A stretch of 38,191 nucleotides of DNA. It comes from a virus. How positions within the stretch are numbered: the stretch's first letter is position 1; the number at the start of each line of letters is the position of its first letter. Both the position numbers and the translations under genes were made by a program. The stretch covers positions 1 through 38,191 of IMG/VR virus record IMGVR_UViG_3300025308_000346; one strand, written 5' to 3'. This document shows positions 8,617-31,246 of this stretch, one piece after another. Below the pieces are notes generated by a model that searched no databases, was not told the DNA's origin, and worked only from the letters and a program-made list of their open reading frames with translations.

Positions 8617-8636
8617 GGGGTTGTCCTGAAATGACA

Positions 8637-8659: not shown

Positions 8660-8678
8660 CAAAGGTTGGCCGCGAGGG

Positions 8679-9182: not shown

Positions 9183-9194
9183 GATTTTTCCTTG

Positions 9195-10361: not shown

Positions 10362-10381
10362 ATTTCCTCCCAAATGGGCGT

Positions 10382-10404
10382 AAAAAAACCCGCCAGTGGC
10401 GGGT
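10382..10404 (-). terminator. Intrinsic terminator-like hairpin upstream of the sheath gene
   Basis: Minus-strand ACCCGCC-ACT-GGCGGGT stem followed by seven T. Same family as the hairpins at 2596 and 14931. Confidence 0.75.
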
Positions 10405-10446
10405 GCAAACTTGCATCAGGCAATACGGTGACCAGTTAATCGCCCC

Positions 10447-10902
10447 TTATTGGAGAGACACCGGAATGATCTCGTGCGGCAGCACCCACAGGTTCTGCGG
10501 AGTGACGGCGTGCACACTGTCGCGGCGGATCAACGGCTGGCCAGCGCTGTCGAAAGACCATGCAATCAGCTCGCTGCAGAACCAGGCCCCGGCCTCCTGC
10601 CAGTCGCGGTTGATACCGAGGCCGGCAATGCCGCTCCAGTCGTAGCGCTTGCCGATCTGGCTGCGGGCGGCGGCCAGCACCTGGTCAGCGTTGTGGCTCG
10701 GGATCCGCATCAGCGCGGCACGGCTGGCGCGGGTGATCGCGGTGGTCAGTGGCGCGGCACGCACGCCATGGCCGGCCACGGCCTCGATTACCTGATCTCC
10801 GTCGACCAATGCAACGTGTGAGAACGGGCCGCCGGCCCGGACGCGGATCAGCAGCGACAGCGGCAGGTTGGTGGTGGTGAACAGCAGGTGCAGGTGTTTC
10901 AT
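10447..10902 (-). CDS. YiiX/permuted NlpC/P60-like cysteine hydrolase in the tail module
   Basis: A 151-residue protein with the two marks of the permuted papain-like (YiiX/YebB, NlpC/P60) fold. These are an early catalytic-type His in GPFSHVALV (His29) and a late Cys in GAWFCSELIAW (Cys109, with Glu111). Between them is VLAAARSQIGKRYDWSGIAG. Members hydrolyse amide bonds, in some cases peptidoglycan peptides. It has no signal peptide. It overlaps the upstream gene by TGATG and lies between the fibre genes and the sheath, where P2 has no such gene. A role in wall penetration or in modifying a host or tail protein is inference. Confidence 0.75.
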   Translation of the reverse strand: MKHLHLLFTTTNLPLSLLIRVRAGGPFSHVALVDGDQVIEAVAGHGVRAAPLTTAITRASRAALMRIPSHNADQVLAAARSQIGKRYDWSGIAGLGINRDWQEAGAWFCSELIAWSFDSAGQPLIRRDSVHAVTPQNLWVLPHEIIPVSLQ

Positions 10903-11549
10903 CAGCCAACCTCCCGCGCGATCTCGTCCATCGCCGCGATGATCTGGTCGGTCAGCACCTGCGCTGCCTCGATGGTGGTCGAGCGTGCTACTTCATATTT
11001 GCGCATGCGCAGAGCCGAGAGCGCGTCCTGGGCGGCGCGCAGCGCGGCTGCCTGGGCGAGAATCGCGTCGGTTGCGGCGCGAGTGGTCAGGCCAGCCGGC
11101 TCGGCGAAGCTCGTCACATATAGGCCGGGCTCACCCTGGTAGCTGGCATCTTTGAACGCTTGGGCGGCAATCTCGCGTACGCGGTACTCGGCTTCGAAGC
11201 GGGTCCAGCGGCTGTAGATCAATGCTGCGCGAGTGTCGATACGTTCCACCAGTTGATGTTGCTGATCTGCGAGGTCGATTGGGGGTGGTTGATCGAATAC
11301 TCCGAGCATGACCCAATCGATGGGCACTGCCCCAGTGGCCTGCAACTCGGCGGCCAGTGCCGACACATAGTCGCGCCGCTTCTGATCGGTGATAGGGTCT
11401 GGCTGCGGCTGCGGGGTCTCCGGTGCAGCCTCACCCGAGAGTGCTTGCAAGTACTCGCGGCGCGCCTGAAGAGCTTCTGTCTCCCACGCGGCTGTGTTCA
11501 CGCTGGTATCGGCAGTGCTGCCGTCCGGTTTTTTCCAGTGAATAAACAT
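10902..11549 (-). CDS. Probable tail-fibre assembly protein, family not recognised
   Basis: 215 residues starting MFIHWKKPDG, with a Pro/Gln linker (TPQPQPDP) at about 45-52. The rest is helical and Ala/Gln-rich with no motif I can name. It lies directly after the tail fibre gene (TGATG overlap, with GGAGGG upstream), the position of P2 gene G, whose product is the fibre chaperone. No similarity to gpG is evident by eye. It may be a fibre chaperone or an accessory tail protein. Confidence 0.7.
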   Translation of the reverse strand: MFIHWKKPDGSTADTSVNTAAWETEALQARREYLQALSGEAAPETPQPQPDPITDQKRRDYVSALAAELQATGAVPIDWVMLGVFDQPPPIDLADQQHQLVERIDTRAALIYSRWTRFEAEYRVREIAAQAFKDASYQGEPGLYVTSFAEPAGLTTRAATDAILAQAAALRAAQDALSALRMRKYEVARSTTIEAAQVLTDQIIAAMDEIAREVG

Positions 11550-12787
11550 CAAGCATCCCTCCCGAAGACAAAGATGTAAAAGCGCGTGCCATCGAATCGC
11601 CCGTTGGTTTCAGTATTGCCGGTCTGCACCTGGAAGGTGCTGGTGGTCTTGGCAAAGCCGCTCTCTTCGGTGATGCCATGTGAAGTCTCTCCGCTGGCCC
11701 CTGCAGAAAAGCCCATCACGGCGTAATTGCTGTTGGCTAGCCCTCGCGCCAGGGTGCAGGTGTACAAGCCAGCAGATACGCGGGTAACCGCACTGATGCC
11801 GAAGCTGTCCAAAATCGCACCCGCGCCACTGACGGCCGCCCACGCCTTGCAGGTGTTGAGTGCCCGGATGCCAGCACCCGCTGGCAGCGTGACATCACCT
11901 GCTGTGGTGTAGCCAGCCGCGGCAACCGCGCTACCACCAATAATTACGCGGCCAGTGGCATCAACCAGTAGCGCGCCCACCCCGCCGACCGCCAGGCCGA
12001 GCTGATCGGCGCCGGGCGAGTAAAGGCCGGTGTCCGTATCGCCGGTCAGGGCCAAACCCGGTGCGGCAGCGGTGCCTAGTGGTACCTTCGGCTGACCAGT
12101 CAGGGACGGTGACGCCAGTGGGGCTTTGGCCGCCAGAGCATTGGTCATCGCGGTGGCAAAGTTCGGGTCATTACCCAGCGCCGCGGCCAGTTCCGCCAGC
12201 GTATCTAACGTTGAGGGGGAGGCGGCGACCAGCGCAGCCACCGCCTCTGCAACCTTGGCATCACCTTCTGCGCTGGTCAGATACTGCGGATGTGGGTCTG
12301 CCGCTGCCGTGTGCGAGGCCATCACCTGGTCAACGTAGCCGCGCGGCGCCAGTACCACGCTTGGGTCGATTTTCAGCTCCACCGCCTCAGCGTTGGCCAC
12401 GATCAGCACCATGCGCAGGATCTGCGTGCGTCCGCTGCCGCTGGCTAACACCGGCTTGTAGGTGTCCGGGCAGTTGGCCACGGCGCACAAGTCGCCGGCT
12501 GCATCGTACAGACCCAGCTCGCGGATCCACCATCCGCCCACGTCTTCCGGGATGATCTGCTCGGCCACGATCAGGCTGGCATTGGCCGGATCCACAAACA
12601 GGGTGTTGAGCGGCGCGCGGCGGTTTTCGTGCACAAGGGCGATCTGGTTACGGTTGGGGATGGGTGTGGCGCCGTTGCCATCACCCACCGCCATTTCGGT
12701 GAGCTGCAGCGTGGTGCCGAGGGCGGTGGCGGCGGCCAGCTTAGCCTGGCCAATCGCCGTGAGAATGGCGAAGTAGATTTGAGCCAT
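11549..12787 (-). CDS. H: Tail fibre protein (P2 gpH-like N-terminus)
   Basis: 412 residues. The first ~160 are the tail-collar fibre attachment domain of P2 gpH-like fibres (MAQIYFAILTAIGQAKLAAA, LQLTEMAVGDGNG, IPEDVGGWWIRELGLYDAAGDLCAVANCPDTYKP). Residues ~180-290 form a shaft-like region including TLDTLAELAAALGNDPNFAT and the TGDTDTGLYSPGADQLGL motif common in fibre shafts. The C-terminal ~120 residues (from about AGAGIRALN) form a compact tip that should set host range. This tip is the part expected to vary between related phages. Confidence 0.9.
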   Translation of the reverse strand: MAQIYFAILTAIGQAKLAAATALGTTLQLTEMAVGDGNGATPIPNRNQIALVHENRRAPLNTLFVDPANASLIVAEQIIPEDVGGWWIRELGLYDAAGDLCAVANCPDTYKPVLASGSGRTQILRMVLIVANAEAVELKIDPSVVLAPRGYVDQVMASHTAAADPHPQYLTSAEGDAKVAEAVAALVAASPSTLDTLAELAAALGNDPNFATAMTNALAAKAPLASPSLTGQPKVPLGTAAAPGLALTGDTDTGLYSPGADQLGLAVGGVGALLVDATGRVIIGGSAVAAAGYTTAGDVTLPAGAGIRALNTCKAWAAVSGAGAILDSFGISAVTRVSAGLYTCTLARGLANSNYAVMGFSAGASGETSHGITEESGFAKTTSTFQVQTGNTETNGRFDGTRFYIFVFGRDA

Positions 12788-12790
12788 GGG

Positions 12791-13402
12791 TTAGTTGCTC
12801 CCCCTGATAGTGAGTGTGTCGATGGTGTGGGTGCCACCGCCGAGCGCGGTGATGCCAGTGACGACGATCTCGCTCGGGGTGTATGGGTAGACGGTCAGCT
12901 CGTCGCCGAGATAGGCGGCGGCACCGATGTAGACCTTGCCCTTGCCAGCCAACGCGATGCGCAAGGCAGGTACGAAGCTGCGTACGTTCTTGTACTCGGC
13001 GATCAGGGCCTCGATCCGCTGCGGTGTCGATTCGTCGATTCCCCTGTCGTGCAAGTCGATGTCGATTTCGAACGCGTGCGGCGTGCCACCTGCCGCACGG
13101 CGGTCGCTGATACGCGCATTCAGCCCGATCGATGCCAGCGCAGCGATTACCGCAGCGGGTGTGCCCTTGCGGCGATGGGTAGGGACTGCATCACGGATCA
13201 GTTGGCGCTGCTGCTCTTCGGTGAGCGCCGACTCCCAGCCCTCTACCGAAAGCGACCACGCCAGCCAGGGCAACCAGGCAGCTGGACAGCTGTCGGCATC
13301 CCAGATTGTGGCGATGGGGGACGGGTCGGACGTCAGCGTGAGGCTGTCAGCAAGAGCCGCCTCAAGCGATGTTCGGTTCGGAGGCAGCAGGTGTCGGCTC
13401 AT
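12791..13402 (-). CDS. I: Tail protein I (P2 gpI-like baseplate protein)
   Basis: A 203-residue gpI family member: LLPPNRTSLEAALADSL, WDADSCPAAWLPWLAWSLSVEGWE at about 37-60, RRKGTPAAVIAALASIG. It is a baseplate wedge component at the fibre attachment site. The start at 13402 (ATGA overlap with gene J) is preferred over the in-frame methionine 18 codons upstream, which lies inside J. The C-terminal ~60 residues (Val/Gly/Thr-rich) diverge from short P2 gpI proteins. Confidence 0.9.
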   Translation of the reverse strand: MSRHLLPPNRTSLEAALADSLTLTSDPSPIATIWDADSCPAAWLPWLAWSLSVEGWESALTEEQQRQLIRDAVPTHRRKGTPAAVIAALASIGLNARISDRRAAGGTPHAFEIDIDLHDRGIDESTPQRIEALIAEYKNVRSFVPALRIALAGKGKVYIGAAAYLGDELTVYPYTPSEIVVTGITALGGGTHTIDTLTIRGSN

Positions 13403-14370
13403 GGCGCCCTCGAAATCTCGATGCTGTCGCACAGCGGAAACTGATTGATCCCACACATCACGTCGGTAGCCGGTTCATCCAGCAGCACCCGCGCGATACC
13501 AGGGCCGTGTAGCGCGGCAAATAGCGCAGAGCGGGGCATGTCGCCACCGAGCTTGTGCCGGACGGTACGCAGCGCATCCAGCCGTTCGCGCGCGGCGGCT
13601 TCAGCCACGGCCGGGTCAGGGCCTGGGTCGAACTCGAGCGTGCCACGTATCTGGTAGTGCACTGCTTGTGCCTGGAGTGCGTGCGGGTGGTCGGTCAGAG
13701 GTCGAATGCTGTCGGCCGACAGGTGCGCCTCTACTATTGGCAGCAGTTCTGTGTAGCTGTCGTCGTCGTGCTGGACGGCGAGCACGTTGACCACCACATC
13801 ACCGGGCATCGGCTCGACCAATCCGGCGCTGTGCGTGACTTGCAGCACGATCGCGCCGGCCGGCAACAATGCGGTGACTTCCGGCGATACCACGACACGC
13901 GCGAATCTAGGGGCATCGACCGAGACATCAGCCACGCTTGCCGAAGCCGACAGTGCATGAAAGACGTAGGCGCCGACGCTGCCGGCTACCGACGTACCTT
14001 CGAGTGCCTGCTGAGCACGGAAACGTAGCCGCTCGTCGTCTTCGTAAATAGGATCGCGCGGCGGATCAGCTTCCAGGTCGCCCGGGTCAACCAGAAGGCG
14101 CTTTATATTCAACAACGCGACTGCGTGGTCGAGATCCGCTCCATGAGCGAATGCCAGCAGGCGGGCCAGCGCTACGTCGTTGACTCGCGCCCGGTACATC
14201 ATCTCGTCGTAGGCAGACAGCTCAAGGAGCTTCACCACCGGATCGGACTCAAGTGCGGCCGACCAGGTGGGACAGAGCGCTTTGAAACGCTCGACCTTGT
14301 TGGCATACAGCTTCTCGAAATCCAGTTCTTCGAGCAGCGATGGCGGAGGTAGTTGGGTCAGGTCAATCAT
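13399..14370 (-). CDS. J: Baseplate assembly protein J
   Basis: 323 residues of the Baseplate_J family (T4 gp6-like wedge). N-terminal IDLTQLPPPSLLEELDFEKL, PVVKLLELSAYDEMMYRARVNDVA near 45, LLAFAHGADLDHAVALLNIKRL, and a central repeat-like domain ending GDVVVNVL. It overlaps W upstream (ATGA) and I downstream (ATGA), so the three are coupled. Confidence 0.95.
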   Translation of the reverse strand: MIDLTQLPPPSLLEELDFEKLYANKVERFKALCPTWSAALESDPVVKLLELSAYDEMMYRARVNDVALARLLAFAHGADLDHAVALLNIKRLLVDPGDLEADPPRDPIYEDDERLRFRAQQALEGTSVAGSVGAYVFHALSASASVADVSVDAPRFARVVVSPEVTALLPAGAIVLQVTHSAGLVEPMPGDVVVNVLAVQHDDDSYTELLPIVEAHLSADSIRPLTDHPHALQAQAVHYQIRGTLEFDPGPDPAVAEAAARERLDALRTVRHKLGGDMPRSALFAALHGPGIARVLLDEPATDVMCGINQFPLCDSIEISRAP

Positions 14371-14699
14371 GCTGTCACGTCCAGTATCTGGTTTTCACCG
14401 ATGTAGTCGCCTTCGATGCGGAACACCGGTCGCCCATCGACCAGGGAGATCAGCGACACGCGCTTGAGCTTGATCCGCGGCTCCCAGCGGGCAAGCGCCC
14501 GGGCCGCCTCGCTCTGTACCGCCGCGATCCAGCCGGGATTGACCGGCTGGTCCACCATGCGTGGGATGTTGCTGCCGTACTCTGGCCGCATCCGGCGGCT
14601 GCCGATCGGGGTGCTCAGGATGTCAGCCAGCGACTGCCGCAGATGCTCAATGCCACTCACCGGCTGACCGGTGTCCCGGTTCATGCCGGTGAGGCTCAT
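14367..14699 (-). CDS. W: Baseplate wedge protein W (GPW/gp25 family)
   Basis: 110 residues with the gp25 signature: GIEHLRQSLADILSTPIGSR, RRMRPEYGSNIP at 38-47, and a C-terminal FRIEGDYIGENQILDV. It bridges sheath and baseplate and acts early in contraction. Start after the small gene at 14705 with a 5-base gap; overlaps J. Confidence 0.95.
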   Translation of the reverse strand: MSLTGMNRDTGQPVSGIEHLRQSLADILSTPIGSRRMRPEYGSNIPRMVDQPVNPGWIAAVQSEAARALARWEPRIKLKRVSLISLVDGRPVFRIEGDYIGENQILDVTA

Positions 14700-14704
14700 C
14701 GGGA

Positions 14705-14914
14705 TTACTCCGCAGCGCTGTCAGCCGCGGCCGGCTGGCGTGCAAAGTCGGCATGGCCATCCAGATACGCAATGACGTCCTTGTCGGACGTGGTCACGGT
14801 GTAGTTTTCCACCGGTACCGCACGGCCATCTTTCAGGAACAGGGTGCGCGACTTGAATGCCTTGTCGCGGAAGACTTGTGCGGCAACAGTGACTGCCAGG
14901 GTTGGTTTACTCAT
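14705..14914 (-). CDS. Small tail-module protein of unknown function
   Basis: 69 residues, MSKPTLAVTVAAQVFRDKAF and then KSRTLFLKDGRAVPVENYTV. Its length, its position between V and W, and the tight 5-base spacing to W argue for a real gene. The methionine at 14914 is chosen because the upstream part of the frame crosses the terminator hairpin. No family recognised. It lies just downstream of the hairpin at 14931-14951. Confidence 0.75.
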   Translation of the reverse strand: MSKPTLAVTVAAQVFRDKAFKSRTLFLKDGRAVPVENYTVTTSDKDVIAYLDGHADFARQPAAADSAAE

Positions 14915-14930
14915 GACGGCTCCAGAAATG

Positions 14931-14951
14931 AAAAACCCGCCAGCGGCGGGT
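14931..14951 (-). terminator. Intrinsic terminator-like hairpin between V and the next gene
   Basis: Minus-strand ACCCGCC-GCT-GGCGGGT followed by TTTTT. Same stem sequence as the hairpins at 2596 and 10382. Confidence 0.7.
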
Positions 14952-14977
14952 GGGTGGTTCAATTGCAAACGGATAAA

Positions 14978-15613
14978 TCATGTCGGCGGGCCAACTGGTG
15001 CACCATCGCCCTGCTCAACGTGGCTATGCCCACCCAAACTGATGGAACCAGCGGTGACGTCAGCATCGGAGTGGATATCGCCCTTGGCCTCAATCGCGCC
15101 GCCAAAGCTAGCCTTGGCGCCACCATTAGCCAGGTGGTTGATGGCAGCACCAACGGTCAGGTTGTTGGTCACCATGACGTCCTGCGCATCCAGCGTGATG
15201 GTGGTGGTCTTCACCGTCACGCTGTCAGCTGCATTCACGTTGACGGTTTTGACGCCGTCCACCAGCAGTGCGCCGGCGGCGTGGTCATACTCGATGACTG
15301 CACCGTCCGGCATCAGCCAGCCGACCACGTCGGGGCGACCATCACCATCAAATTCACCGGTGTAGAAGCCGATGATGGCGACACCCTGCGCCGGGTCGCC
15401 GGACGGGTTCAGCAGCACGGCCTGTTCGCCGATGCTGGGCGGCCTCCAGTGGCGGGCGCGCCCTGCTGCTACGGCGCTCCACATCACCCAGTCCGATGTC
15501 CAGCCGTCGGACTCGATGCGCACACGCGGCGGCTTCATCTGCACCGCCGCCACATTGCCCAGCATGATCAGACTGGAGAGCTGCCGGTCCATTTCTGACT
15601 GTTCGTAGCTCAT
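14978..15613 (-). CDS. V: Baseplate assembly protein V (tail spike)
   Basis: A 211-residue P2 gpV homologue. The N-terminal OB-fold domain (SSLIMLGNVAAVQMKPPRVR) with SDWVMWSAVAAGRARHW and IGEQAVLLNPSGDPAQGVAIIGFY is followed by a repetitive beta stretch (VKTVNVNAADSVTVKTTTITLD) and a C-terminal GHSHVEQGDGAPVGPP. The C-terminal H-x-H motif is the place where P2 gpV binds its iron ion at the spike tip. The spike pierces the outer membrane. Confidence 0.95.
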   Translation of the reverse strand: MSYEQSEMDRQLSSLIMLGNVAAVQMKPPRVRIESDGWTSDWVMWSAVAAGRARHWRPPSIGEQAVLLNPSGDPAQGVAIIGFYTGEFDGDGRPDVVGWLMPDGAVIEYDHAAGALLVDGVKTVNVNAADSVTVKTTTITLDAQDVMVTNNLTVGAAINHLANGGAKASFGGAIEAKGDIHSDADVTAGSISLGGHSHVEQGDGAPVGPPT

Positions 15614-16101
15614 GGCGTCACTACCGATTCTGTATCGCCGTCAACGGACCACTGCACTTCGCGCGGTACAAACGACGGCAAAGCGATATCGGACGGCTCG
15701 CCGACATCCAGCTCGTGCACCCACTCCACCAGCCAGACTAGGTAGCCATCCAGCTCGGCATGGTGAAAACCATCCGGCCCGATCTGGCGAAGTTTGGCGG
15801 GCGTCACCGGTTGGTCGAAAGTCGTGGCCGCGTGTACCTGCGCCGCCACGCGCGTGGCAAGCTGCCGCACAGCCAGCTCGGCCTTGGCCGCAGTCGGATC
15901 ACACACCACCCGGGCCTGCATGATGGCGACCAGTGCCAGCTCGCCGGTACCGGGGTCGGTGCCTGGCTCAAATTCAGCCAGCTCCAGCACCAGCAATGGC
16001 AGGCTGACGCGCTCGCCCAGCTCCGGGTAAAACTGAACATCCACTTCTGGCAGGGCTGCAGCCAACCTTTGTTCGATGGCGTCGTGTAGTGCTTCAATCA
16101 T
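15610..16101 (-). CDS. Probable tail terminator/completion protein
   Basis: 163 residues, MIEALHDAIEQRLAAALPEV, then DVQFYPELGERVSLPLLVLE and a strand-rich C-terminus. This resembles the lambda U / Mu gp37-type tail terminators (helix, then 'Y..LGE....P.L.LEL..'), which cap the tube and join it to the head. It lies where lambda U or P2 R would be, between the Z-like gene and V, and overlaps V by 4 bases. Family assignment is by context more than by motif. Confidence 0.65.
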   Translation of the reverse strand: MIEALHDAIEQRLAAALPEVDVQFYPELGERVSLPLLVLELAEFEPGTDPGTGELALVAIMQARVVCDPTAAKAELAVRQLATRVAAQVHAATTFDQPVTPAKLRQIGPDGFHHAELDGYLVWLVEWVHELDVGEPSDIALPSFVPREVQWSVDGDTESVVTP

Positions 16102-16111
16102 CAGAGGTGTC

Positions 16112-16645
16112 CTATTTCGTCAGCTTGCTGACTTCCCAACGCAGCTCCTGCTCCAAGATCTCGAACAGCCGAGCCTGCGCACGGGCAGCGACGGAGCGGA
16201 AGGCACGCTCGCCAGCCTCGTCCCACTCAAACCGTACCTGCTCGTAAGGCGTACGCGCGCGGCCAACCCGGCGGAACACACCGCCATCGTTCGGACTGCC
16301 GCGTTTGCTGCGATACAGCCACGCGCCGTCAAAGCGGTGCCGACCGACCGTGACGCCACGCCGGGTCTGGCGAGCCTTGCCGAGGCGGGCGGCCTCGATC
16401 GCGTTGATACCCAGCCAGACCTTGCCCTCCTTCGCCGAGCGCAAGAAGAAGTACAGCCGCTGCTTGAGCACCTTCTGCGGCACCTTGATCTCGCTGGAAA
16501 GTGAACGGGCGACATGGGTTTTAATCCAGTCGCCCGTCTTGCGCAGTGCCCGCCGCCAGGCATTGCTGACCGCCACTTGAGACAGCCCGTTGACCAGCTG
16601 CAGCACGGGGCGGATGTCAATTTCGGCCTTGATCGCAACTGGCAT
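16112..16645 (-). CDS. Z: Minor tail protein Z-like
   Basis: 177 residues, starting MPVAIKAEIDIRPVLQLVNG and containing SNAWRRALRKTGDWIKTHVA, VSKLTK at the end, and a basic middle (KARQTRRGVTVGRHRFDGAW). This fits the lambda Z (Minor_tail_Z) family, which acts at the head-proximal end of the tail during joining. The start at 16645 has GGAGAGAGC just upstream; the longer frame upstream overlaps the head-tail joining gene and is out of frame with it. Confidence 0.8.
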   Translation of the reverse strand: MPVAIKAEIDIRPVLQLVNGLSQVAVSNAWRRALRKTGDWIKTHVARSLSSEIKVPQKVLKQRLYFFLRSAKEGKVWLGINAIEAARLGKARQTRRGVTVGRHRFDGAWLYRSKRGSPNDGGVFRRVGRARTPYEQVRFEWDEAGERAFRSVAARAQARLFEILEQELRWEVSKLTK

Positions 16646-18365: not shown

Positions 18366-19543
18366 ACATTACCTCGCTGTGGGTTGGCCGCACGGGCACG
18401 GCGGCTTGCATAAATGTCGCGGGCCGATGGGCCCTTGTTTTTCGGGGTGGACGGATCGTCCGCCGGCGGCAGGTTGTCCAGCTCTTCGCCGGCGCCGGCC
18501 ACCATCTTGTCAAACAGCCGCGCTCGGGCAGATTCCACATCCAGCCCACTGGCGATCAGGCTGTTGGCCAGCTCCGGCAGCTTGGCGGTCTTGCACAGGT
18601 CGCGGATCTCGGTGGCCTGGGCCACTGCGCTGCGGATGGCACTGTCACTTGCCAGGGCGCTGACGGTGATCACACTGTCAACGGCAACGGCCGGCAGCGA
18701 GGCCTCGTTGCACAGACGTGCCGCCAGCTTCGCCATCGCCACCGGGTCTGCCGCGGCGGGTGGCGCCGGATCAGGAGCAGGCGCCGGATCAGGAGCAGGC
18801 GCCGGATCAGGAGCAGGCGCCGGGGCCGGGGCCGGATCTGCGGGCGGTGTAGCGGGCTCGTCCAGCGCCTGCAGCAGGGCTGGCGGCGCGTTCTTCAGCC
18901 GACCCAGACCGGCGCGCAGGTTGGCGCTGGCTTTCAGCGGCACAAGGTCGGTGACTTCGTCCACTAGCCCCAGCGCCAGCGCTTCTTGCGCGGTCAACCA
19001 GGTGGTGTCATCCAGCATTTTGATCAGCTCGTCGGCACTCAGCGCCGGCGCCTTGGCGCGATAGCAGCCGACCAGGTTGTCGCGCACCTTGTCCATCATG
19101 TCGGCGGTGGCGCGCAGGTCCTCGGCCTCGCCCATGGCAAACGTCCACGGGTTGTGGATCATCATCATGCTGTTGGCCGGCATCACCACGCGGTGGGCAC
19201 CAACGGCGATGATGCTGGCGATACTGGCGGCCACGCTGTCGATACGGGCGGTGACGCGGTTACCCAGGCGGCGCAGAGTGTTGTGGATGGCAAGGCCGTC
19301 GAACACGTCGCCACCAAGGCTGCTGATGGCGATCACGATTGGGCGCTGGCCATCGTCGGCGGCCTTCAGGTCACGGATGAAGTCGGCAGCACGAATGCCC
19401 CAGACGCCGATGTCGTCATACAGCTCGACTTCCAGTGACTGATCAGCAGCAAGGTTGGCCGCATTGCTGATGCGGTACCAGCTGCCGCTGGCCGCCGGCG
19501 CGGGTGCCGGGCCGTTGAAAATGCGGGGGGTTGCAGGGTTCAT
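18362..19543 (-). CDS. Head maturation protease, ClpP-like (S14/S49 type), with C-terminal scaffold-like domain
   Basis: 393 residues. The N-terminal ~210 residues are a ClpP-fold prohead protease: VIAISSLGGDVFDGLAIHNT (69-88), IDSVAASIASI with probable nucleophile Ser107, MMMIHNPW with His130, and LGLVDEV with Asp195. A Pro/Ala/Asp linker with perfect 18-bp repeats (about 243-276) then leads to a helical C-terminal part that may act as scaffold, as Nu3 does within lambda C. It removes scaffold before DNA packaging. Overlaps the portal stop (ATGA-type coupling). An internal methionine (VAMAKLAARL) could give a separate scaffold, but no strong ribosome-binding site precedes it. Confidence 0.92.
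   Translation of the reverse strand: MNPATPRIFNGPAPAPAASGSWYRISNAANLAADQSLEVELYDDIGVWGIRAADFIRDLKAADDGQRPIVIAISSLGGDVFDGLAIHNTLRRLGNRVTARIDSVAASIASIIAVGAHRVVMPANSMMMIHNPWTFAMGEAEDLRATADMMDKVRDNLVGCYRAKAPALSADELIKMLDDTTWLTAQEALALGLVDEVTDLVPLKASANLRAGLGRLKNAPPALLQALDEPATPPADPAPAPAPAPDPAPAPDPAPAPDPAPPAAADPVAMAKLAARLCNEASLPAVAVDSVITVSALASDSAIRSAVAQATEIRDLCKTAKLPELANSLIASGLDVESARARLFDKMVAGAGEELDNLPPADDPSTPKNKGPSARDIYASRRARAANPQRGNV
18762..18815. repeat. Three perfect tandem copies of an 18-bp unit in the protease linker
   Basis: The unit ggcgccggatcaggagca is repeated three times without mismatch and followed by degenerate copies. On the minus strand it encodes Ala-Pro-Asp-Pro-Ala-Pro steps of the linker. 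Copy number is likely to vary by slippage without loss of frame. Confidence 0.95.
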
Positions 19544-21033
19544 GGTTGTTCCTTTTTTGCGTCGTCATCACGATCATCGACGATGATTTCGCCCTGGTCG
19601 TCACGCTGGCGCGGGTCGGAGTCGTAGGCCAGCCCCAGCCCGTCGGCGCGGGCGTTATCGGCGGCGTTTTCGGTGTCGATCGTTTCGGCATCGGCGCCAC
19701 GCTTGAGCGCGACTTCGCTGCGGCTGGTGAAGCCGCTGCGCACTGCCAGGCGATCCGCCTGCACGTCCTGCACCGGATGGATATACGCCCAGCCCTGCGG
19801 AACCCAGCGCGCGCGCTGGAACGGTCGAGGGTTGGCCGCATAGCCTGGCAGGCTGATGGCGCCGGAAAGCACCGCCATATTCAGCACCGCACGCCATACC
19901 GGCTTGCACAGCTGGTGCACAAAGATGGCGTGCTGGCGCTGCTCTACGCGGCGGCGGAACTCGTTCAGGATGACGCGGATCACGCGGTCGCTGATGTTGC
20001 GCAGGTCGCCGGTCAGCAGCTCGTACGGCAGACCCATGCCGGCGGCGATGGCCGCCAGCTGCTGCCGCATGAAGTCCTGATAGTTGTTGCCGGCATCAGG
20101 CGGGTCGCTGAACTCGACTTCCTCGCCCGGTGCCAGCTCCTGCATGGTCCCCGGCTCCAGCCCGACCAGCGGTGCGAAGTCGGCGACAACCTGCTGCCCC
20201 GGCTCGCCGGGGAATGCGGCGTCTTCGCTCGGTTTGCGGATGAAGCCGGCAAACAGGTTGGCGACTTCTTGCCGGAACAGCACCGCATCATCGAACTCGT
20301 CCAGCGTCTTGAGGCGCAGCAGCACGGTGGCCAGCATCGGCACGCCGCGCAGCTGGCCGGGGCGGGTCGGCTCGTACACATGCAGCACCTGTTCTGCCGG
20401 CACCCGCACCAGGCTGTTGTAGGAGCCTTCCCCAGCACGCTCACCGGGGTGGCTCTTGTACATCCAATAGGCGACACGCTTGCCGATGGCGTCGAACTCG
20501 ATGCCCTGGCGGATGCGGTTGCCGTTCGGCGCGGTACCGGTCTTGTCGTGAGGCACGAACTCCGGCTCCAGCAGCTGGATCTGCAGCGGCACGGCCAGGC
20601 CGTCTTCCAGTCGGCGCGGCCGCAGCCGGACGAAACACTCGCCGCTTTCAAACAGGCCTTGCGCGACCAGTGCCTGCTGGCCGTAGAAATTCAGCACGCC
20701 ATCCGCATCGGACTCCTCGCACCAGTCGTCCCATACCTCCTGCAGCATTTGCCGGATGTCGGCATCCGGGTGACGCGGTTTGGGGGCGATGCCGGTACCG
20801 ATATGGTTGGAGACCTGCGTGTCCAGCGCCTTGAAGGCATACGGGTCATTGCGTGCAGCGTGGCGGCTACGGTTGCGCAGGGTTTGCAGGCCGCTGCCGG
20901 TGGTGCTGACCGGCCCACTACTGCCGGGCTGCCAGTTGTTGGCACGCCGTCCCTGCCCCGCGCCCTCGTAGCTGTTCTTCAGCCGGGTCGGCATCAGAAA
21001 GCCGCGGCCACGCAGTGTCGGGAAAGCGCTCAT
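19540..21033 (-). CDS. B: Portal protein, lambda type
   Basis: 497 residues of the Phage_portal_2 (lambda gpB) family: YEGAGQGRRANNW near 22, ARNDPYAFKALDTQVSNHIG (60-79), IGTGIAPKPRHPD, FVRLRPRRL, PAEQVLHVYEPTRPGQLRGV and DFMRQQLAAIAAGMGLPYEL. Twelve copies form the ring through which DNA enters and leaves. The Asp/Glu-rich tail (IIVDDRDDDAK) is typical. It overlaps gpW upstream and the protease downstream. Confidence 0.95.
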   Translation of the reverse strand: MSAFPTLRGRGFLMPTRLKNSYEGAGQGRRANNWQPGSSGPVSTTGSGLQTLRNRSRHAARNDPYAFKALDTQVSNHIGTGIAPKPRHPDADIRQMLQEVWDDWCEESDADGVLNFYGQQALVAQGLFESGECFVRLRPRRLEDGLAVPLQIQLLEPEFVPHDKTGTAPNGNRIRQGIEFDAIGKRVAYWMYKSHPGERAGEGSYNSLVRVPAEQVLHVYEPTRPGQLRGVPMLATVLLRLKTLDEFDDAVLFRQEVANLFAGFIRKPSEDAAFPGEPGQQVVADFAPLVGLEPGTMQELAPGEEVEFSDPPDAGNNYQDFMRQQLAAIAAGMGLPYELLTGDLRNISDRVIRVILNEFRRRVEQRQHAIFVHQLCKPVWRAVLNMAVLSGAISLPGYAANPRPFQRARWVPQGWAYIHPVQDVQADRLAVRSGFTSRSEVALKRGADAETIDTENAADNARADGLGLAYDSDPRQRDDQGEIIVDDRDDDAKKEQP

Positions 21034-21243: not shown

Positions 21244-23193
21244 TCATCGCCGTTTCAGGTATCCCGACTGCGCACGACGGCGCTGTGGGGCGGATAAAGC
21301 AGAAGACCCCGCTTTGGGGGCGGGGTTTTTTGCGGTTGCAGGGTTGGTCACAGTGGGCGGCGCCTGATCAAACAGGCCGGTCTGCGCGTACTTGATCTTG
21401 AGCCGTTCCCAGTCTGCCGCCTGATAGCGATGCAGGCCCAGGTAGTGCGCCATAGCCAGGTTGTAAACGTTCAAGTCCAGCACCTCGTTGCGCTCGGACT
21501 TCGGCTTGACCCAGTCAGTCACGGCACGGCCTTTGACGTAGCGGATCAGCTTGCGCTCGGCGGTAAGCTGATCGAAGTGCTCGGCCGGCAGGTCTTTGCT
21601 GAAGTGCTGCGCTCCCGGGCCTTCCAGTAGCTTGAAGCGGTTGTAGAGCCAGTCCTTGGCAGTATCGGTGCCGATCAGCCACAGTTCGCAACCGCCCTTC
21701 TCGGTAGTGCCGCGCCATGTGACATCGACCTTACTCGGCCGCTGAGGCAGCACCGGCTTGCCGCGCTTGGATTCCCCCTTGATCGCCAGAATATGACGCC
21801 AGCGACGCAGGCGGCAGAACTGGTAGACCTCTTGCGTATGGTTACCGCCCGAGTCCACTGCGCCGGCCGCGATGGTCATGCGGCGGCCAGACGGGTGGAT
21901 GAACTCGGCCTTCAGCTCTTCGTCCAGTGTGTCCCAGGTGCGCTGCTCGGCAGGGTCGCCCATGATCACGCGGTGGTCGATGGTCCAGCTTTCCAGCCCT
22001 TCGCCCCAGCCCTTGATCAGCAGCTCCAGGCGGTTCGCCTGGGTATCGACCGCTGCCGTCAGCATCAGCACGCCCGCCGGGATCGTACGCAGGGCGTAAT
22101 CCTCAACGCGAGCGAGCAGATCGGCACCGCGGGTGCGCTCCTGGGCGTTGTCCCACACTCTGGACAGCCGGGTGTTGTAGAACACCTGCATCGGCTCCGG
22201 ATCACCCTTCTGCAAGGAGACTTCGGCTTTCTCGTGCTGTTTCAGCAGCGCGGCCCACGATACCCAGCCCAGCGGCATGTACAGCGCCGAAATGTGGTAC
22301 GACTCGGTTTCGCCATCGCCCTCGGCCGTTGCTCGCCAGTCATCGCTGGCCAGCATGGTGCTCTTGTGGTGCTCCTCGATGCAGCAGCCGTTCTCGATGC
22401 AGACATAGTGTGCGGCAGTGCGATCCGCATTCCATTTCAGCTGCTCGAACTCCAGCGTCTGGCTTTCGCCGCAATGCGGGCATGGCACGTAGTAACGCTG
22501 CTGGTTGCCTTCCTTGTACAGTTCGGCAATCCGGCTGGCACCGTCGACCGTCGGCGAGCTGGAGTAGTAAATCTTGGCGTTGCGGCCAAAGGTGGAGGTT
22601 CGCGCTTCAGCCAGCACAACCGGATCGCCCTCGTTATTGACGTTGCGATCCCATCGATCGATCTCGTCGCCGTACAGGTAGCGTGCGGACACCTCAGCCA
22701 GGTTGGCCGCAGCACCAGCCGTAGTGATCATCAGCGTACCGCCGGTGAATTCCTTGGTGTCGATCGTGTTGCGGCTATCACGGCTGCGCGGTGCCGCAAC
22801 GCGGTCGCGTAACGCAGGGATAGCATCCAGATTTTTACCAATGCGTCCGGACAGGCGTTTGGCCAGATTAAGCGAAGGCTCCAGCGCCAGGATGTTACTC
22901 GGTGCCATATGAATCAACGCACAGATCCAGTTCAGGAAAACTTGCGTCTTCAGCATCTGCGAGGCCCCCATCACCACTACACGGCGGCAGGGGTGCTCCG
23001 GCGACAATGCCCGCATCACGCCGCGCGCATAGGGCGTGCGGTCAGTCTGGTACTTGCCCGGCTCCGCTGCACCTGCGTCGGCAGGAATGCGCTGATGCTC
23101 ATCGGCCCACTGATCAATCCAAAGCGCAGGATCAGGACGCAAACCAGAAACAAAACCCTTCACATACGCGACAAAGCCGCTTGCATATTTCAT
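21244..23193 (-). CDS. A: Terminase large subunit (GpA family)
   Basis: 649 residues. The packaging ATPase domain shows the variant Walker A VVVMGASQMLKTQVF (Gly76...Lys82) and Walker B YLYGDEIDRW (Asp176, Glu177), both usual for the GpA family. The nuclease half carries AAVDTQANRLELLIKGWGEG, with an acidic residue of the RNase H-like site, and AVDSGGNHTQEVYQF. It translocates DNA into the prohead and cuts at cos. It starts with a 4-base overlap with TerS. An intrinsic terminator on the opposite strand lies within its 3' end (21306-21331). Confidence 0.95.
   Translation of the reverse strand: MKYASGFVAYVKGFVSGLRPDPALWIDQWADEHQRIPADAGAAEPGKYQTDRTPYARGVMRALSPEHPCRRVVVMGASQMLKTQVFLNWICALIHMAPSNILALEPSLNLAKRLSGRIGKNLDAIPALRDRVAAPRSRDSRNTIDTKEFTGGTLMITTAGAAANLAEVSARYLYGDEIDRWDRNVNNEGDPVVLAEARTSTFGRNAKIYYSSSPTVDGASRIAELYKEGNQQRYYVPCPHCGESQTLEFEQLKWNADRTAAHYVCIENGCCIEEHHKSTMLASDDWRATAEGDGETESYHISALYMPLGWVSWAALLKQHEKAEVSLQKGDPEPMQVFYNTRLSRVWDNAQERTRGADLLARVEDYALRTIPAGVLMLTAAVDTQANRLELLIKGWGEGLESWTIDHRVIMGDPAEQRTWDTLDEELKAEFIHPSGRRMTIAAGAVDSGGNHTQEVYQFCRLRRWRHILAIKGESKRGKPVLPQRPSKVDVTWRGTTEKGGCELWLIGTDTAKDWLYNRFKLLEGPGAQHFSKDLPAEHFDQLTAERKLIRYVKGRAVTDWVKPKSERNEVLDLNVYNLAMAHYLGLHRYQAADWERLKIKYAQTGLFDQAPPTVTNPATAKNPAPKAGSSALSAPQRRRAQSGYLKRR
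21306..21331 (+). terminator. Intrinsic terminator on the plus strand, inside the 3' end of terL
   Basis: Plus-strand ACCCCGC-TTTGGGG-GCGGGGT followed by an unbroken T-run. It would stop transcripts antisense to the late operon; no plus-strand gene ends here. Confidence 0.55.
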
Positions 23194-23759
23194 TCTGTCA
23201 TCGCCTTGTTCAGGTCATCTTCGCCCAGCTTGGTGACATCCTCCAGCATCTTGCGCAGGCGGTCGCTCAGCTCGCGTTCCAGCTTCCAGGGGTCGGAGAT
23301 CGCAGCCAGATCGGACGATATCTGCTTGGGCAAGCCCATCACCGAATCCCGCAGCAGCCTGGCGTAGCGGTATGTGGCCTCTTCGACTGCCTGTCGCTCA
23401 ACCGTATTGCCGCAGACCTTGTCATATTCAGCCTGTGCCAGGAGCGCTAGGTATTTCTCGCGACTAGCCTTGTGCGTGTAGTAGTCGGAACTGCCGCCCT
23501 GCGACTCGGCTGTGTCCGGTGCATCCGCAGTCACCTGGCTGCGGACATCACGCTGCGTGCGGGTGTCGACATGCCGCTGGCGAACACCTTCTTTCGATGG
23601 GTCGGCGGTCTTGCCGAGTTTGGCCAGCGTTGCGTCAACATCGACTGACTTGCCATCCGGCGACATGATCAGCCGCCCCTGTGATCCCAGCTTGGTCACA
23701 TAGCTGGGCGACCAACCCTGCGAATCCGCAAAGGCCTTTCTGCTCAAATATGTGCGCAT
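23190..23759 (-). CDS. Terminase small subunit (Nu1-like)
   Basis: 189 residues. The N-terminal ~55 residues form a winged-helix/HTH (YLSRKAFADSQGWSPSYVTK, LGSQGRLIMSPDGKSVDVDA), as in lambda Nu1. A linker (ADPSKEGVRQRHVDTRTQRD) and a helical C-terminal region that should contact TerL (residues ~90-189) follow. It recognises the packaging site. The 50 bases directly upstream carry TTTCAC iterons that may be its binding sites. First gene of the late operon. Confidence 0.85.
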   Translation of the reverse strand: MRTYLSRKAFADSQGWSPSYVTKLGSQGRLIMSPDGKSVDVDATLAKLGKTADPSKEGVRQRHVDTRTQRDVRSQVTADAPDTAESQGGSSDYYTHKASREKYLALLAQAEYDKVCGNTVERQAVEEATYRYARLLRDSVMGLPKQISSDLAAISDPWKLERELSDRLRKMLEDVTKLGEDDLNKAMTE

Positions 23760-23761
23760 GG

Positions 23762-23813
23762 TTTCACCATCATTTCACTAGATTTCACCGTGGGTGAATT
23801 TCACTAACTTCAC
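23762..23813. repeat. TTTCAC iterons upstream of terS, candidate cosB or operator
   Basis: TTTCAC occurs at 23762, 23773, 23783 and 23799, with CTTCAC at 23808. Spacing is 11, 10, 16 and 9 bases, close to one helical turn. A perfect inverted repeat TTCACC-GTG-GGTGAA spans 23784-23798. In lambda the small-terminase sites lie just upstream of Nu1, so binding by TerS is a reasonable guess. Confidence 0.6.
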
Positions 23814-23912
23814 AGCGCAGCCACTAAAAAAGAATCGCGAGTCTCCAGCCTCGTACCGGGCGCAGAATCGCTAGGGTCCCCGTCTCTCCCAGGTCGGCAG
23901 CACAAAAAGACA

Positions 23913-23939
23913 GCGCCCCGATCAACAGACCGGGGGCGC
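23913..23939 (-). terminator. GC-rich hairpin with T-run, second of two in the leader
   Basis: GCGCCCC / GGGGCGC arms around a 13-base loop; on the minus strand the stem is followed by TGTCTTTTTG. It lies in the untranslated leader before terS and may be a late-leader terminator. The GC block GGGGGCGCCGAAAGCAC beside it is also a possible cos region. Confidence 0.5.
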
Positions 23940-23988
23940 CGAAAGCACAACACAGAGGAGAAACGACCACGCAAACACCGCAAAAACG

Positions 23989-24012
23989 CAAAAAGCCCGC
24001 TTTCGCGGGCTC
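23989..24012 (-). terminator. Intrinsic terminator downstream of the Q-like gene
   Basis: Minus-strand GCCCGC-GAAA-GCGGGC followed by TTTTTGCGTTTTT. It ends early transcription or is the tR'-like site that an antiterminator must override. The rest of 23760-24069 holds no supported gene. Confidence 0.75.
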
Positions 24013-24021
24013 TTGACGGAA

Positions 24022-27849: not shown

Positions 27850-29844
27850 CTACTGAATCATATACTCGCCGTCATTGAAAACAGTAAGGCAACTTTCATC
27901 CAAACCTAAAACAGCCATATCAGCAACAGGAATACTAGTAGCAATAATAACCTGTCCTTTTTCTGAAAATTTTTCTTTTGATTTTTTCAGCAGCGCGATG
28001 AAACTTTCATGGCTTGCTTCATGCTGTCTAGGCTCGTCAAAAACGACAAACCCCCCATGCTTAACCGCATCAAACTCCACACCAAGCTCCATCAATGCCA
28101 GCGTATATGCCCAAATAATTCTAATAGAGTCACTCGCAGAAATATCAGCCACAATATCAAAACCATCCAATTCAGGACGAAAAGTTTGACTGGAGATATC
28201 CAGGGCATGAATGTTCATATTTTTATATGAAAAATCTTGCAGGTTGGCTATTAAGCGCGACTTCAATGCGTCAAAAATTTCTTTTGAGACCCCACCCAAA
28301 TCAGACTTCATTGCAATTTCAAGCGATTCAGATTTTAAATAATGCTCTTTAAAAATCACCTCAGCACTGGCATTTAACTTGTCTCGTTGTGAAATTATTT
28401 TCTGAAAATCTCTTTCTAAGAATCTTAATTCAGCAACCTCTTTGATTTCATTTCCAAAAGCATCTAAATACTTTCTCTCTTCATCTTTAAACGAACCAAT
28501 TAAAACCTCCACTCTCTCCAATTCACTTTGCATTGACCGCCCTTGAACAATGCCAGCCCTCAACTCTTCATTATTGCGACTATTGATAGCATCATAGAAT
28601 TTCTTCTGGTCTTCCAAGTATGCAATATTTTGATCTATGGTCATCGGTTCATAACCATCTTCAACTGGTGTAAAGCTCTCTTGCAACTTGGTGTCACATA
28701 CTGGACAGTTTTTCGTCTCAATATTAATGCCATTTTTAGCGCCAACACTAATCAATCGACGAAGCTGCTTATATCGATCAAGATCATTTTCGAGAGAAAC
28801 AAGTTTCCTATTTATTTTTTTACTCGTAGCTTCGATGTTGTTGTTTTTTTCTGAGAGTGCAAATATTTTTTCTGATATTAGCTGACGCTCTGATATGGCG
28901 GCTTCCAATTCATGCCCAAAACTCCAGCCTTGCAAATCTTGATCAATCTTCCTGATTCTTCTCTGCAAGTTTGATAAATAATCTCCGACCGTAACCCTAT
29001 CTCCATTGCTAACATGATATAAAACACCTAGACGAACATAATCTTCAGAATCTATATCGCAATCAAAATTCACCAACAGGCCATTTAACTCACCCAATGT
29101 CTCAAATGATGACTTAATGCCTTCCCACTGAATTTCAAGTTGCCTTATTGCAACTTTGTATTTTTCAACATCGCCGCGACGACTAAAATCAGAAACACCA
29201 AGACAAAACTCAAGTGCAGTTTTTTTAAGATTTTTTATCTTATAGTAAAGTGGCGCATTGGCTTGTATTTCAGACCACCCCCTTTTTTGCTCGATAAAAA
29301 ACAATGGAAAAATGCATTCCAAATACAAAGGTGCAAGACTGCCATCGAACCTTGGGACCATTGGCAAATTCCAACCAATAAATTTTGCCAACCAGTTATG
29401 AAAACCCAGCTCACTAATAGCAGAACCAACTGACCCTGCCGACTTCAAGAAAAAATCTTGAGCCTCACCTTTAGAAACAACCGTTATTTTATCCGGATTA
29501 CCCTTCACCTCTCGTCGCAAACAAACAATATCACCGTTTTTATTGGATACTTCCAAGTCAACAAATGACCCAACAACAAAAAAACCTTGTTCATTATTGT
29601 TATTCTTGTTCTTATTCAAAAAAATCGCATTTGTAATTGCAGCAGGGAACGGCGCTCGTCTGCCAGGCCCCAATATAGACTCCAACCCTAGCGCATACGC
29701 AATCGAATTAACAAAGGTAGACTTACCAGAGGAGTTCTCAGCACGAATAACATTCAACCCATCATTAAACGGAATGCTTACAGAAAAATTCTTATCTTTC
29801 GTAATCACGTTTATTGAAAGCTTCAGCAATTTCAACCCCAGCAT
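27850..29844 (-). CDS. SMC/Rad50-like ABC ATPase of an ABC-three-component (Lamassu-like) defence system
   Basis: 664 residues. A divergent Walker A lies at 35-43 (AENSSGKST, with Ala in place of the first Gly). Coiled-coil arms cover ~225-375 and ~400-500, with a CPVC hook motif at 380-383 at their tip, as in Rad50. Walker B is GGFVVFDEP (597-605, Asp603/Glu604), preceded by a degenerate signature near ISASDSIRI. Lamassu LmuB / ABC-3C ATPases have this size and plan and are thought to sense phage DNA or replication structures and unleash the effector. GGGGGTGAT lies just before the ATG. It is the last gene of an AT-rich operon and starts 1 base after the middle subunit. Confidence 0.85.
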   Translation of the reverse strand: MLGLKLLKLSINVITKDKNFSVSIPFNDGLNVIRAENSSGKSTFVNSIAYALGLESILGPGRRAPFPAAITNAIFLNKNKNNNNEQGFFVVGSFVDLEVSNKNGDIVCLRREVKGNPDKITVVSKGEAQDFFLKSAGSVGSAISELGFHNWLAKFIGWNLPMVPRFDGSLAPLYLECIFPLFFIEQKRGWSEIQANAPLYYKIKNLKKTALEFCLGVSDFSRRGDVEKYKVAIRQLEIQWEGIKSSFETLGELNGLLVNFDCDIDSEDYVRLGVLYHVSNGDRVTVGDYLSNLQRRIRKIDQDLQGWSFGHELEAAISERQLISEKIFALSEKNNNIEATSKKINRKLVSLENDLDRYKQLRRLISVGAKNGINIETKNCPVCDTKLQESFTPVEDGYEPMTIDQNIAYLEDQKKFYDAINSRNNEELRAGIVQGRSMQSELERVEVLIGSFKDEERKYLDAFGNEIKEVAELRFLERDFQKIISQRDKLNASAEVIFKEHYLKSESLEIAMKSDLGGVSKEIFDALKSRLIANLQDFSYKNMNIHALDISSQTFRPELDGFDIVADISASDSIRIIWAYTLALMELGVEFDAVKHGGFVVFDEPRQHEASHESFIALLKKSKEKFSEKGQVIIATSIPVADMAVLGLDESCLTVFNDGEYMIQ

Positions 29845-29845
29845 A

Positions 29846-30304
29846 TCACCCCCAGATAATAAATTTAACCACTTTATCGGTTAGTTTAGATTTTATGTCT
29901 TGCAAAAACTCTCGCTCAGCCGATGCCACATCAGCTTGTTCAGCCAATTCGACCAAGGACTGCCCCATTGACATCAACTCAACACGCCCACTATTGGACA
30001 TAGAAAAGTAGCCTTTTGCGATACCAATCTGAATAGCCCTATCAACATTACTATCAGGCATCACTTTAGGTGATTCGTCAGAATACCCAAAAAGAAAATC
30101 CTTATATTCATGCCATCTAGCTGGTCTTAAAACCATCCAACTGCCCGCTCTTATTTTTGCTGTTGGCAGGCCGACACCATCCGAACTTAATAACTTCATA
30201 CACAAACATAACATCAACAATCGCCATAGTGGCCGATTCTCAATTGGCACCTCATAACCAGCATCACTGATTACAATTCGAACACTACCATTCATATCAT
30301 TCAT
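29846..30304 (-). CDS. Small middle subunit of the ABC-three-component system (LmuC-like)
   Basis: 152 residues, MNDMNGSVRIVISDAGYEVP, then two helices, and a winged-helix-like part at ~85-125 (NVDRAIQIGIAKGYFSMSNS followed by GRVELMSMGQ). The size, the order effector-middle-ATPase, and the winged-helix pattern fit the middle components of ABC-3C systems, which bridge ATPase and effector. Assignment is by architecture; the sequence family itself was not recognised. It overlaps the effector stop (ATGA). Confidence 0.7.
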   Translation of the reverse strand: MNDMNGSVRIVISDAGYEVPIENRPLWRLLMLCLCMKLLSSDGVGLPTAKIRAGSWMVLRPARWHEYKDFLFGYSDESPKVMPDSNVDRAIQIGIAKGYFSMSNSGRVELMSMGQSLVELAEQADVASAEREFLQDIKSKLTDKVVKFIIWG

Positions 30305-31212
30305 GACAATATAAAATCCATTTTACATTCAGCAATCCATTTTGAAACAAAGCCAATTGAGAATTTCTCGGAATTCTGCATGGATATTTTTTGTCTCAAA
30401 CTACTGACATTAGCCCTATTCTTTTTTAGCAAATCCATTACAAGCTCTGCAGGGTCTTCTTTGGAAAACAACGCATTTGTTTTTAATATATTCAAATTAG
30501 CAGCAACCATATCTGAGATCTCCTTATGCAACTCTGGAAACTCTTCTCGGTATGCCACAATCAAATCCTCTAACACCAGATAGTCACCGATCAAGCTATC
30601 AACCATAGCACCAGGGGATGGTGCAATTTTCCCACACTTTCTAATTAAATTGTTATGAAAATTAGTATTTATAGACTTCCACTGATCTTTTTCTTCTTGG
30701 GTGATCTCGCGTACAGGGAAGTCAATTGCACTTTCGATAAGCATTCTAGCCTTATGCTTCTCCAAAGGATAAGCATCGTCACTTTCAATTCTAACTTTAA
30801 AATTACCTTTATTTATAAATGATGGTGCTTTTTTTAAGAATGTCTTTGTTTTTGTGTTGCAATAACTTATCAAGTCCTTACTGCGCACATTAGGAACCAA
30901 CAATAACCACTGTGTAATAACCAAGCCATCAAGCAACAAGCTTATTCCACTTTCATTTTTAATTAATTTATTAAGATCTTCATTGATTTTATTTTTCACC
31001 CTCTGCTTGTGATCTTCCATGCTACACGAAGGATCTGGAAAGTAGCATTGGAATAATGTCCCATCATCCGCAAAAAACTCTAGCCCATGATCACCACTAT
31101 CAGCATGAGGAACAGAAGTAAAGGATCTAACACCATAGTGTATCCTTAATATTTTCTCGCAATAATTTTCCCAAGCAGTCCCATCCATTGCGTCCTTAAA
31201 AGAAGAACTCAT
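30301..31212 (-). CDS. Putative effector of the ABC-three-component system, restriction-endonuclease-like
   Basis: 303 residues. The N-terminus has a REase-fold pattern: helix with GTAWENYCEKIL (Glu15), then SGDHGLEFF (Asp41, Glu45) and GTLFQCYFPD (50-60). In Mrr/Cap4-like nucleases the last motif reads QxK; here it is Gln55-Cys56-Tyr57, so the catalytic Lys is missing or displaced. The remainder is helical and likely binds the middle subunit and ATPase. The start at 31212 is chosen for GAGGG upstream; a TTG 8 codons earlier is less likely. It would be the nuclease released on infection, if active. Confidence 0.65.
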   Translation of the reverse strand: MSSSFKDAMDGTAWENYCEKILRIHYGVRSFTSVPHADSGDHGLEFFADDGTLFQCYFPDPSCSMEDHKQRVKNKINEDLNKLIKNESGISLLLDGLVITQWLLLVPNVRSKDLISYCNTKTKTFLKKAPSFINKGNFKVRIESDDAYPLEKHKARMLIESAIDFPVREITQEEKDQWKSINTNFHNNLIRKCGKIAPSPGAMVDSLIGDYLVLEDLIVAYREEFPELHKEISDMVAANLNILKTNALFSKEDPAELVMDLLKKNRANVSSLRQKISMQNSEKFSIGFVSKWIAECKMDFILS

Positions 31213-31246
31213 ATCCAACCCTCGCAAACAATTCAAATATTATCAA

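Follow-up and report, generated by a model that had tools for sequence, protein, structure and literature searches.

The window analysed here, by which we mean the whole stretch of 38,191 bases, is an IMG/VR virus record whose late genes lie on the minus strand, and the cos-like region is the one between terS and the next gene upstream (Table 1). A whole-genome pattern search found an exact 43-nt string of the window in Vogesella indigofera DSM 3303, which also has this predicted cos and this start of terS (L155), so a Vogesella-like host is likely. The stretch 27850-31236 is AT-rich (about 36-40% G+C vs about 62%) and contains matches to the Lamassu proteins LmuB (27850-29844, E 5e-91) and LmuA (30301-31236, E 1e-22); it is probably defence cargo of the prophage. 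A Fic-domain protein encoded at 33762-35018 matches the SoFic defence model. On the minus strand, 24073-23991 bears a promoter-like TTGACT/TAATAT site with a GTCCGGTTTGACCGGAC palindrome inside the spacer, and a terminator-like hairpin follows 30 nt beyond it, an arrangement reminiscent of the lambda pR'-tR' late-gene switch.

Table 1. Late genes and features of the predicted cos region (bp 1 is the first base of the predicted cohesive end)
Feature	Position	Strand	Evidence or remark
Lambda-family portal	19540-21033	minus	
terL, GpA-type large terminase (ATPase and endonuclease)	21244-23193	minus	PF05876, E 1.3e-78; PF20454, E 3.4e-98
terS, small terminase	23190-23759	minus	phrog_57, E 2.2e-25
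Predicted cosB: GTGAAG 23813-23808; GTGAAA 23804-23799, 23788-23783, 23778-23773 and 23767-23762; TTCACC 23798-23793	23762-23813	minus	
First full word with inverted partner, GTGAAATTCACC	23793-23804 (bp 48-59)	minus	position equivalent to N15/lambda R3
Conserved TTAGTG between cosN and cosB	23822-23827 (bp 25-30)	minus	place of the lambda I2 segment
cosN-like 16 bp, CG^AGGCTGGAGACT^CG = CGAGGCTGGAGACTCG	23838-23853	minus	sequence
cosQ-like GGGGACCCTAGC	23870-23881	minus	upstream limit of conserved block; fixed-spacing pattern in IMG/VR and genomes
Terminator-like hairpin including the GC block, outside cos	23911-23941	minus	outside conserved block
Second terminator-like hairpin, upstream of cos	23991-24014	minus	

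The five TTTCAC-like words that the initial annotation had pointed out upstream of terS are all present, four of them exact (starting at 23762, 23773, 23783 and 23799) and the fifth being CTTCAC at 23808-23813, as is the palindrome formed by TTCACC (23784-23789) and GGTGAA (23793-23798). Their spacing had been called near-helical, which holds for two of the four start-to-start distances (11, 10, 16 and 9 nt) and fails for the rest. TTTCAC is not enriched across the whole window (16 matches vs 16.8 expected). Four copies in 60 nt were seen in none of 100 dinucleotide shuffles (maximum 2), but since at least one hexamer was as frequent as this in 56 of the 100, the cluster by itself is weak evidence. 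Its weight comes from conservation, as the relatives compared have the words in matching positions; thus chance clustering, which the shuffle test alone does not exclude, is excluded by conservation.

A scan with the TerS protein retrieved nine IMG/VR loci, two almost identical to the window and seven with about 58-61% TerS identity. The block common to these relatives extends, on the terS coding strand, from GGGGACCCTRGC down to the start codon, with the conserved pattern GGGGACCC...TACG-GGGC..GGACY-CGC...TTAGTGGC...GTTAGTGAAATTTCACC...GTGAAA, and the whole word array of the window recurs in it. Among the seven diverged loci this agreement stops at GGGGACCC, and the DNA farther upstream is unrelated in most. 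When IMG/VR was searched with the pattern GGGGACCCTNGC, a gap of 14-20 and ACGNGGC, at least 120 matches were obtained; among the matches listed, the gap was 14 in 105, 15 in nine and 16-18 in six, and ACYCGC, which is outside the search pattern, occupied a fixed place in 105/105 of those with gap 14, 7/9 with gap 15 and 0/6 with other gaps. In the genome collection, a longer pattern had only 33 matches. Pseudomonas accounts for 26, all with gap 14; the other seven, from Vogesella, Pseudogulbenkiania, 'Beta proteobacterium L13' and a proteobacterial MAG, all have gap 15. Some genome matches carry the signal without terS, and a looser pattern was run over the complete sequence of nine genomes that contain loci of this kind. 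The signal was also matched in 79 of 398 Pseudomonas genomes and in five of 61 genomes of the Vogesella family group, and the reversed-pattern control gave no match in any genome scanned (the nine whole genomes, the 398 and the 61). BLAST of the phage collection yielded no useful isolate phage with the Pseudomonas-type cos. To judge from coordinates, no IMG/VR match starts or ends at the predicted cut among the 80 listed of 110 stretches from one search and all 63 from another. Searches of the open-licence PMC literature gave no report of the GGGGACCC signal or of Pseudomonas satellites with multiple cos sites.

Within the conserved block, the parts of a lambda-like cos site can be recognized. 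The 16-bp CGAGGCTGGAGACTCG has CG at both flanks, and six of its eight symmetric pairs are complementary (CGAG/CTCG arms, as read from the sequence); by analogy with lambda, the nicks would fall inside these flanks and leave a predicted 12-nt cohesive end, AGGCTGGAGACT, at 23851-23840. The first base of GGGGACCCTAGC stands 30 nt ahead of the predicted top-strand nick. Between cosN and cosB, nearly every TerS-linked locus has a TTAGYG-type match that begins at bp 25 or 26, although among the loci examined four of the TTGAAA label have no such match, and the TTAGTG of the window may have a role like that of lambda I2. As no IHF consensus is found within 23750-23900, cosB would be at best of a simple, N15-like kind.

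Behind the same cosQ-cosN we found five classes of word, GTGAAA, GTGAAC, TTGAAA, GTTGAC and GTTAAC. The full pattern occurs at 146 loci, with TerS called in 117; three loci with Nu1-like TerS were excluded, which reduced the distinct TerS entries from 98 to 95 and left 114 TerS-linked loci. The first class word begins at bp 48 in 112 of these 114 and at bp 49 in the other two; by class, bp 48 was seen in 10/10 loci for GTGAAA, 53/53 for TTGAAA (counting the first-word variant CTGAAATTCAA), 10/12 for GTTGAC, 13/13 for GTTAAC and 26/26 for GTGAAC. In three loci of the GTTAAC class (L025, L036 and L140) cosB is about 340-620 bp long, with several GTTAAC clusters and spacers between them. Three other loci (L042, L052 and L091) have the same cosQ-cosN followed by a TerS like lambda gpNu1 and different downstream DNA, so that TerS families seem exchangeable behind one cosN.

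The word changes together with the protein. When the 95 distinct TerS are compared over residues 1-65, the nearest neighbour shares the word in 95/95; a comparison over the remainder of the protein gives 93/95. Since the C-terminal part tracks the word almost as well, the argument for the N-terminal domain is carried by 11 pairs with C-terminal identity of at least 0.75 and different words: their N-terminal identity is 0.60, whereas the 470 pairs that share a word reach 0.97. (Four classes fell together when TerS were grouped by single linkage at 55%, and this grouping was discarded.) Thus, the word appears to vary with the N-terminal part of TerS, as would be expected of TerS-binding sites. 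An AlphaFold model of the window TerS was built with 15 sequences (mean pLDDT 69, pTM 0.30; pLDDT about 80-84 for the N-terminal 50 residues). Its residues 3-54 align with terminase DNA-binding domains (7LWR, Z 7.8; 7LW0, 7.6; 7LXS, 7.5), with chain B of RppC-TerS 6HN7 (Z 7.3) and with gpNu1 1J9I (Z 5.5, rmsd 1.6), all middling values, with MerR/Xis folds scoring only slightly lower. Foldseek alone gave no match for the model at E <= 0.001.

It is very likely that the region immediately upstream of terS is a cos region, and we are confident, short of certainty, that 23881-23762 on the minus strand is the cos site of the prophage and works like that of lambda. The N-terminal winged HTH of TerS would dock on the GTGAAA words (cosB), 23804-23793 being the R3 equivalent, and the docked TerS would keep the GpA-type TerL at cosN, the symmetric 16 bp of 23853-23838. 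TerL would then nick the strands 12 nt apart to produce AGGCTGGAGACT ends, and GGGGACCC (cosQ) would be needed when packaging terminates at the next cos. This reading is supported by satellites that have the same signal and no terminase, including one in Vogesella with GTGAAA words, which are described below.

The initial annotation had placed a candidate cos region directly upstream of terS with its cut at a GC-rich block; the conserved block and the layout agree with the former, but the predicted cut moves by about 80 bp. The block is there (23930-23940), it is GC-rich and upstream of the words, and a cosN at 23931-23940 would fit a lambda-like layout. However, it forms one arm of a hairpin (a 55-nt stretch with MFE -25.2 kcal/mol) that is followed by TTTTT on the minus strand and is therefore terminator-like. 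It stands about 80 bp past the conserved cosN-like 23853-23838, which is that much closer to terS, and it is missing at the matching place in most relatives compared, while 23881-23760 is kept. We accordingly rule it out as cosN and regard the chance of a cut there as negligible. The words might instead be operators, bound by a protein that represses or activates terS transcription, or replication iterons, as they lie immediately upstream of the terS start codon with terminators and a promoter-like site farther upstream. This is very improbable, since in satellites without terS neither the words nor their distance from cosN is changed, the words track the TerS N-terminus, and in the GTTAAC class the terS start is about 260 bp farther off with the first word still at bp 48. 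TerS-binding sites near terS are found in pac phages too, and TerS might bind here while TerL, packaging by the headful mechanism, needs no fixed sequence for its cuts. The only Pseudomonas helper-satellite pair found in the literature, AH14a/AH14b, reportedly showed no evidence of cohesive ends (PMC4936722), albeit with a different terminase. A pac site at this place nevertheless seems a slight prospect, given a symmetric, lambda-like cut sequence conserved at strict spacing beside the words and a TerL of the lambda GpA family.

The same signal, in duplicate, is common in Pseudomonas. In the 398 genomes we counted 96 loci, of which 19 are head-to-head pairs under the strict pattern and 77 match it once. 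When the pattern was relaxed, another cos, convergent with the first and no more than 480 nt away, appeared at 41 of these 77; terS is present at 22, and the remaining 14 have neither. The terL gene is within the stretch in all 22 terS loci and in three of the 14 (L263, L294 and L317), and neither terS nor terL was found in any of the 41 relaxed pairs. Thus, 60 of the 96 loci are pairs, 25 have terminase genes and 11 have neither, and at least one cos-pair element is carried by 51 of the 398 genomes. With one more pair from P. karstica (G002, L160), outside the 398, the total is 61; the pair loci are L217-L236, the 20 studied in detail, and 41 of L260-L336. The two arms bear different words in 61/61 pairs, the combinations being TTGAAA+GTTGAC (42), TTGAAA+GTGAAC (14), GTGAAC+GTTGAC (4) and TTGAAA+GTTAAC (1); 77/81 arms have their first word at bp 48 or 49, and the reversed control for pairs gave 0/97. 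The pairs are related by descent, forming 50, 32 and 20 clusters at 95, 90 and 85% identity, with spans clustering near 281-284, 292-295 and 301-303 nt. A third cos is present in several (L231 and L234, by eye; L265, L270 and L308). In 14 of the 20 pairs L217-L236, a palindrome of type TTACCGnnnCGGTAA lies between the arms.

These 20 loci, extended to at most 34 kb, have the pair near one end. Variable cargo comes next, then the DUF927 and AlpA-like proteins, and a tyrosine integrase is reached at about 10-17 kb. By protein clustering, with Pfam run on one member of each cluster, the integrase is found in 13 elements, DUF927 in 11 and AlpA in eight; the integrase cluster is absent from the fetched stretch in seven of the 20. 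Direct repeats of 19-44 nt enclose the pair and the integrase in 11 of the 13 integrase-bearing elements. TerL, the window TerS, four other TerS, the portal and the protease had no tblastn match in any of the 20 elements, and the shared satellite proteins (F1, F3, F16 and others) had no informative PHROG match. In the two elements tested, cargo proteins match defence-system models. By gene content the elements have what defines Gram-negative PICIs, namely integrase, AlpA and a replication protein, with no structural or terminase genes, and to judge by sequence they look like integrative satellites. In Vogesella alkaliphila, the stretch 3128-16261 of locus L257 has a single cos at 4389 with GTGAAA words, together with a protein that resembles the DUF927 proteins and one that resembles integrases, next to a tRNA-like stretch; this element is likely a satellite of phages like that of the window.

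It is likely that the cos pairs allow packaging by several different helpers. We think it probable that these Pseudomonas satellites form a common class in which about 250-450 bp hold two or three complete cos sites, set head to head, and each site bears the TerS words of a different helper class. Through the use of helper cosB rather than Rpp, one element could be packaged by terminases of several unrelated TerS specificities, going either way round the circle. Alternatively, the pairs could be decoys that trap the phage terminase as a defence rather than packaging sites of the elements themselves, which would agree with the defence matches in the cargo beside them and with the common interference of satellites with their helpers. 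This is unlikely, however, as the pairs lie near the end of elements with integrase, AlpA and DUF927 and no terminase, and both arms keep cosQ, which would be unnecessary for initiation. The satellite pairs are the finding of larger interest: they suggest a simple evolutionary route to wider helper choice, they make that choice directly testable, and the cos-pair signal can serve as a sequence tag for locating such satellites. For the window itself, predicted cut and binding coordinates are now available for a terminase family whose isolate relatives are very few, and the natural series of TerS domains paired with DNA words should help in studying how TerS reads DNA.

Among known satellites, the PICI EcCICFT073 has two cos sites, both functional and neither with the helper cosB; they require the island protein Rpp, and cos1 is read by Rpp-TerS (parts of PMC6092414 and PMC6739421). 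The Pseudomonas elements resemble it and other Gram-negative PICIs in having integrase, AlpA, a replication protein and a helper-like cosQ-cosN and in lacking structural genes, but differ in the helper-type cosB of each arm, of two different classes set head to head, a combination that we did not find in the open-licence PMC literature; no Rpp was identified among the few shared proteins searched. The Pseudomonas satellite AH14b is described as headful-packaged (part of PMC4936722) and was rejected for this reason as a known example of a cos-pair system.

The terminase relatives of the window among isolates are the Pseudomonas phages Haddon, Presto, Turba, Lodos, Meadow, LPPA36, LPPA56 and vB_Pae_U5, with about 60% identity in TerL and 42-45% in TerS. 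They too have a word array upstream of terS, but with GTTAAC words nearer the predicted cut and a cosQ-like GGGGCCCC at another distance. The Haddon record (PQ571161.1) ends at ...GGGTGATTC, and its other end (L002 1-30) folds back on the sequence around the predicted cut, only a few bases from ...CGTTCT|CGCG. The break thus occurs where the sequence resembles the predicted cut, but this is no more than suggestive. The record end is a foldback, and the genome was assembled by SPAdes from Illumina reads (part of PMC11841053), so we do not take the record end as proof of a cohesive end.

The roles of cosQ, cosN, cosB, TerS and TerL in lambda are known from experiment, and the window shares with lambda and N15 a 12-nt span between the nicks (in the window, the predicted ones), CG/CG flanks and 2-fold symmetry (parts of PMC4669245 and PMC9026076). 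The lambda order proposed in the initial annotation is supported, since the window most likely reads cosQ-cosN-cosB-terS-terL with the words between the predicted cut and terS. The distance from cosQ to the cut is 30 nt for GGGGACC in the window (23881 to 23852, the cut being the predicted one) and 30 nt for GGGTCC in the lambda record; by position only, the first word at bp 48 coincides with the start of N15 R3 (bp 48-60), R3 of lambda being at bp 50-65 (part of PMC9026076), and terS starts at bp 93 vs bp 89 in N15. A GpA-type TerL and a TerS with a winged HTH (the fold of the window TerS coming from the middling model) are also common to the window and lambda-like phages. On the other hand, cosB consists of four or five short words vs one or three long R sites in N15 and lambda, and the predicted cohesive end equals that of lambda at 6/12 positions, while in the relative L031 it would start with GGGCGG, identical to the first six bases of lambda's. 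The cosQ-like sequence is GGGGACCCTAGC, with core GGGGACCC, vs GGGTCCTTTCCG, with core GGGTCC, in lambda. As cosQ has no apparent variation in the lambda-like group, according to the part of PMC4669245 that treats it, the window cos would be lambda-like in its working and outside the narrow lambda-like group. Raw identity to the lambda cos is not significant within the window, with 22/46 overall (rank 34, with 33 better places), 10/16 for cosN (rank 101) and 13/19 for the core (rank 7); thus, the likeness of this cos site to that of lambda lies in its layout and spacing.
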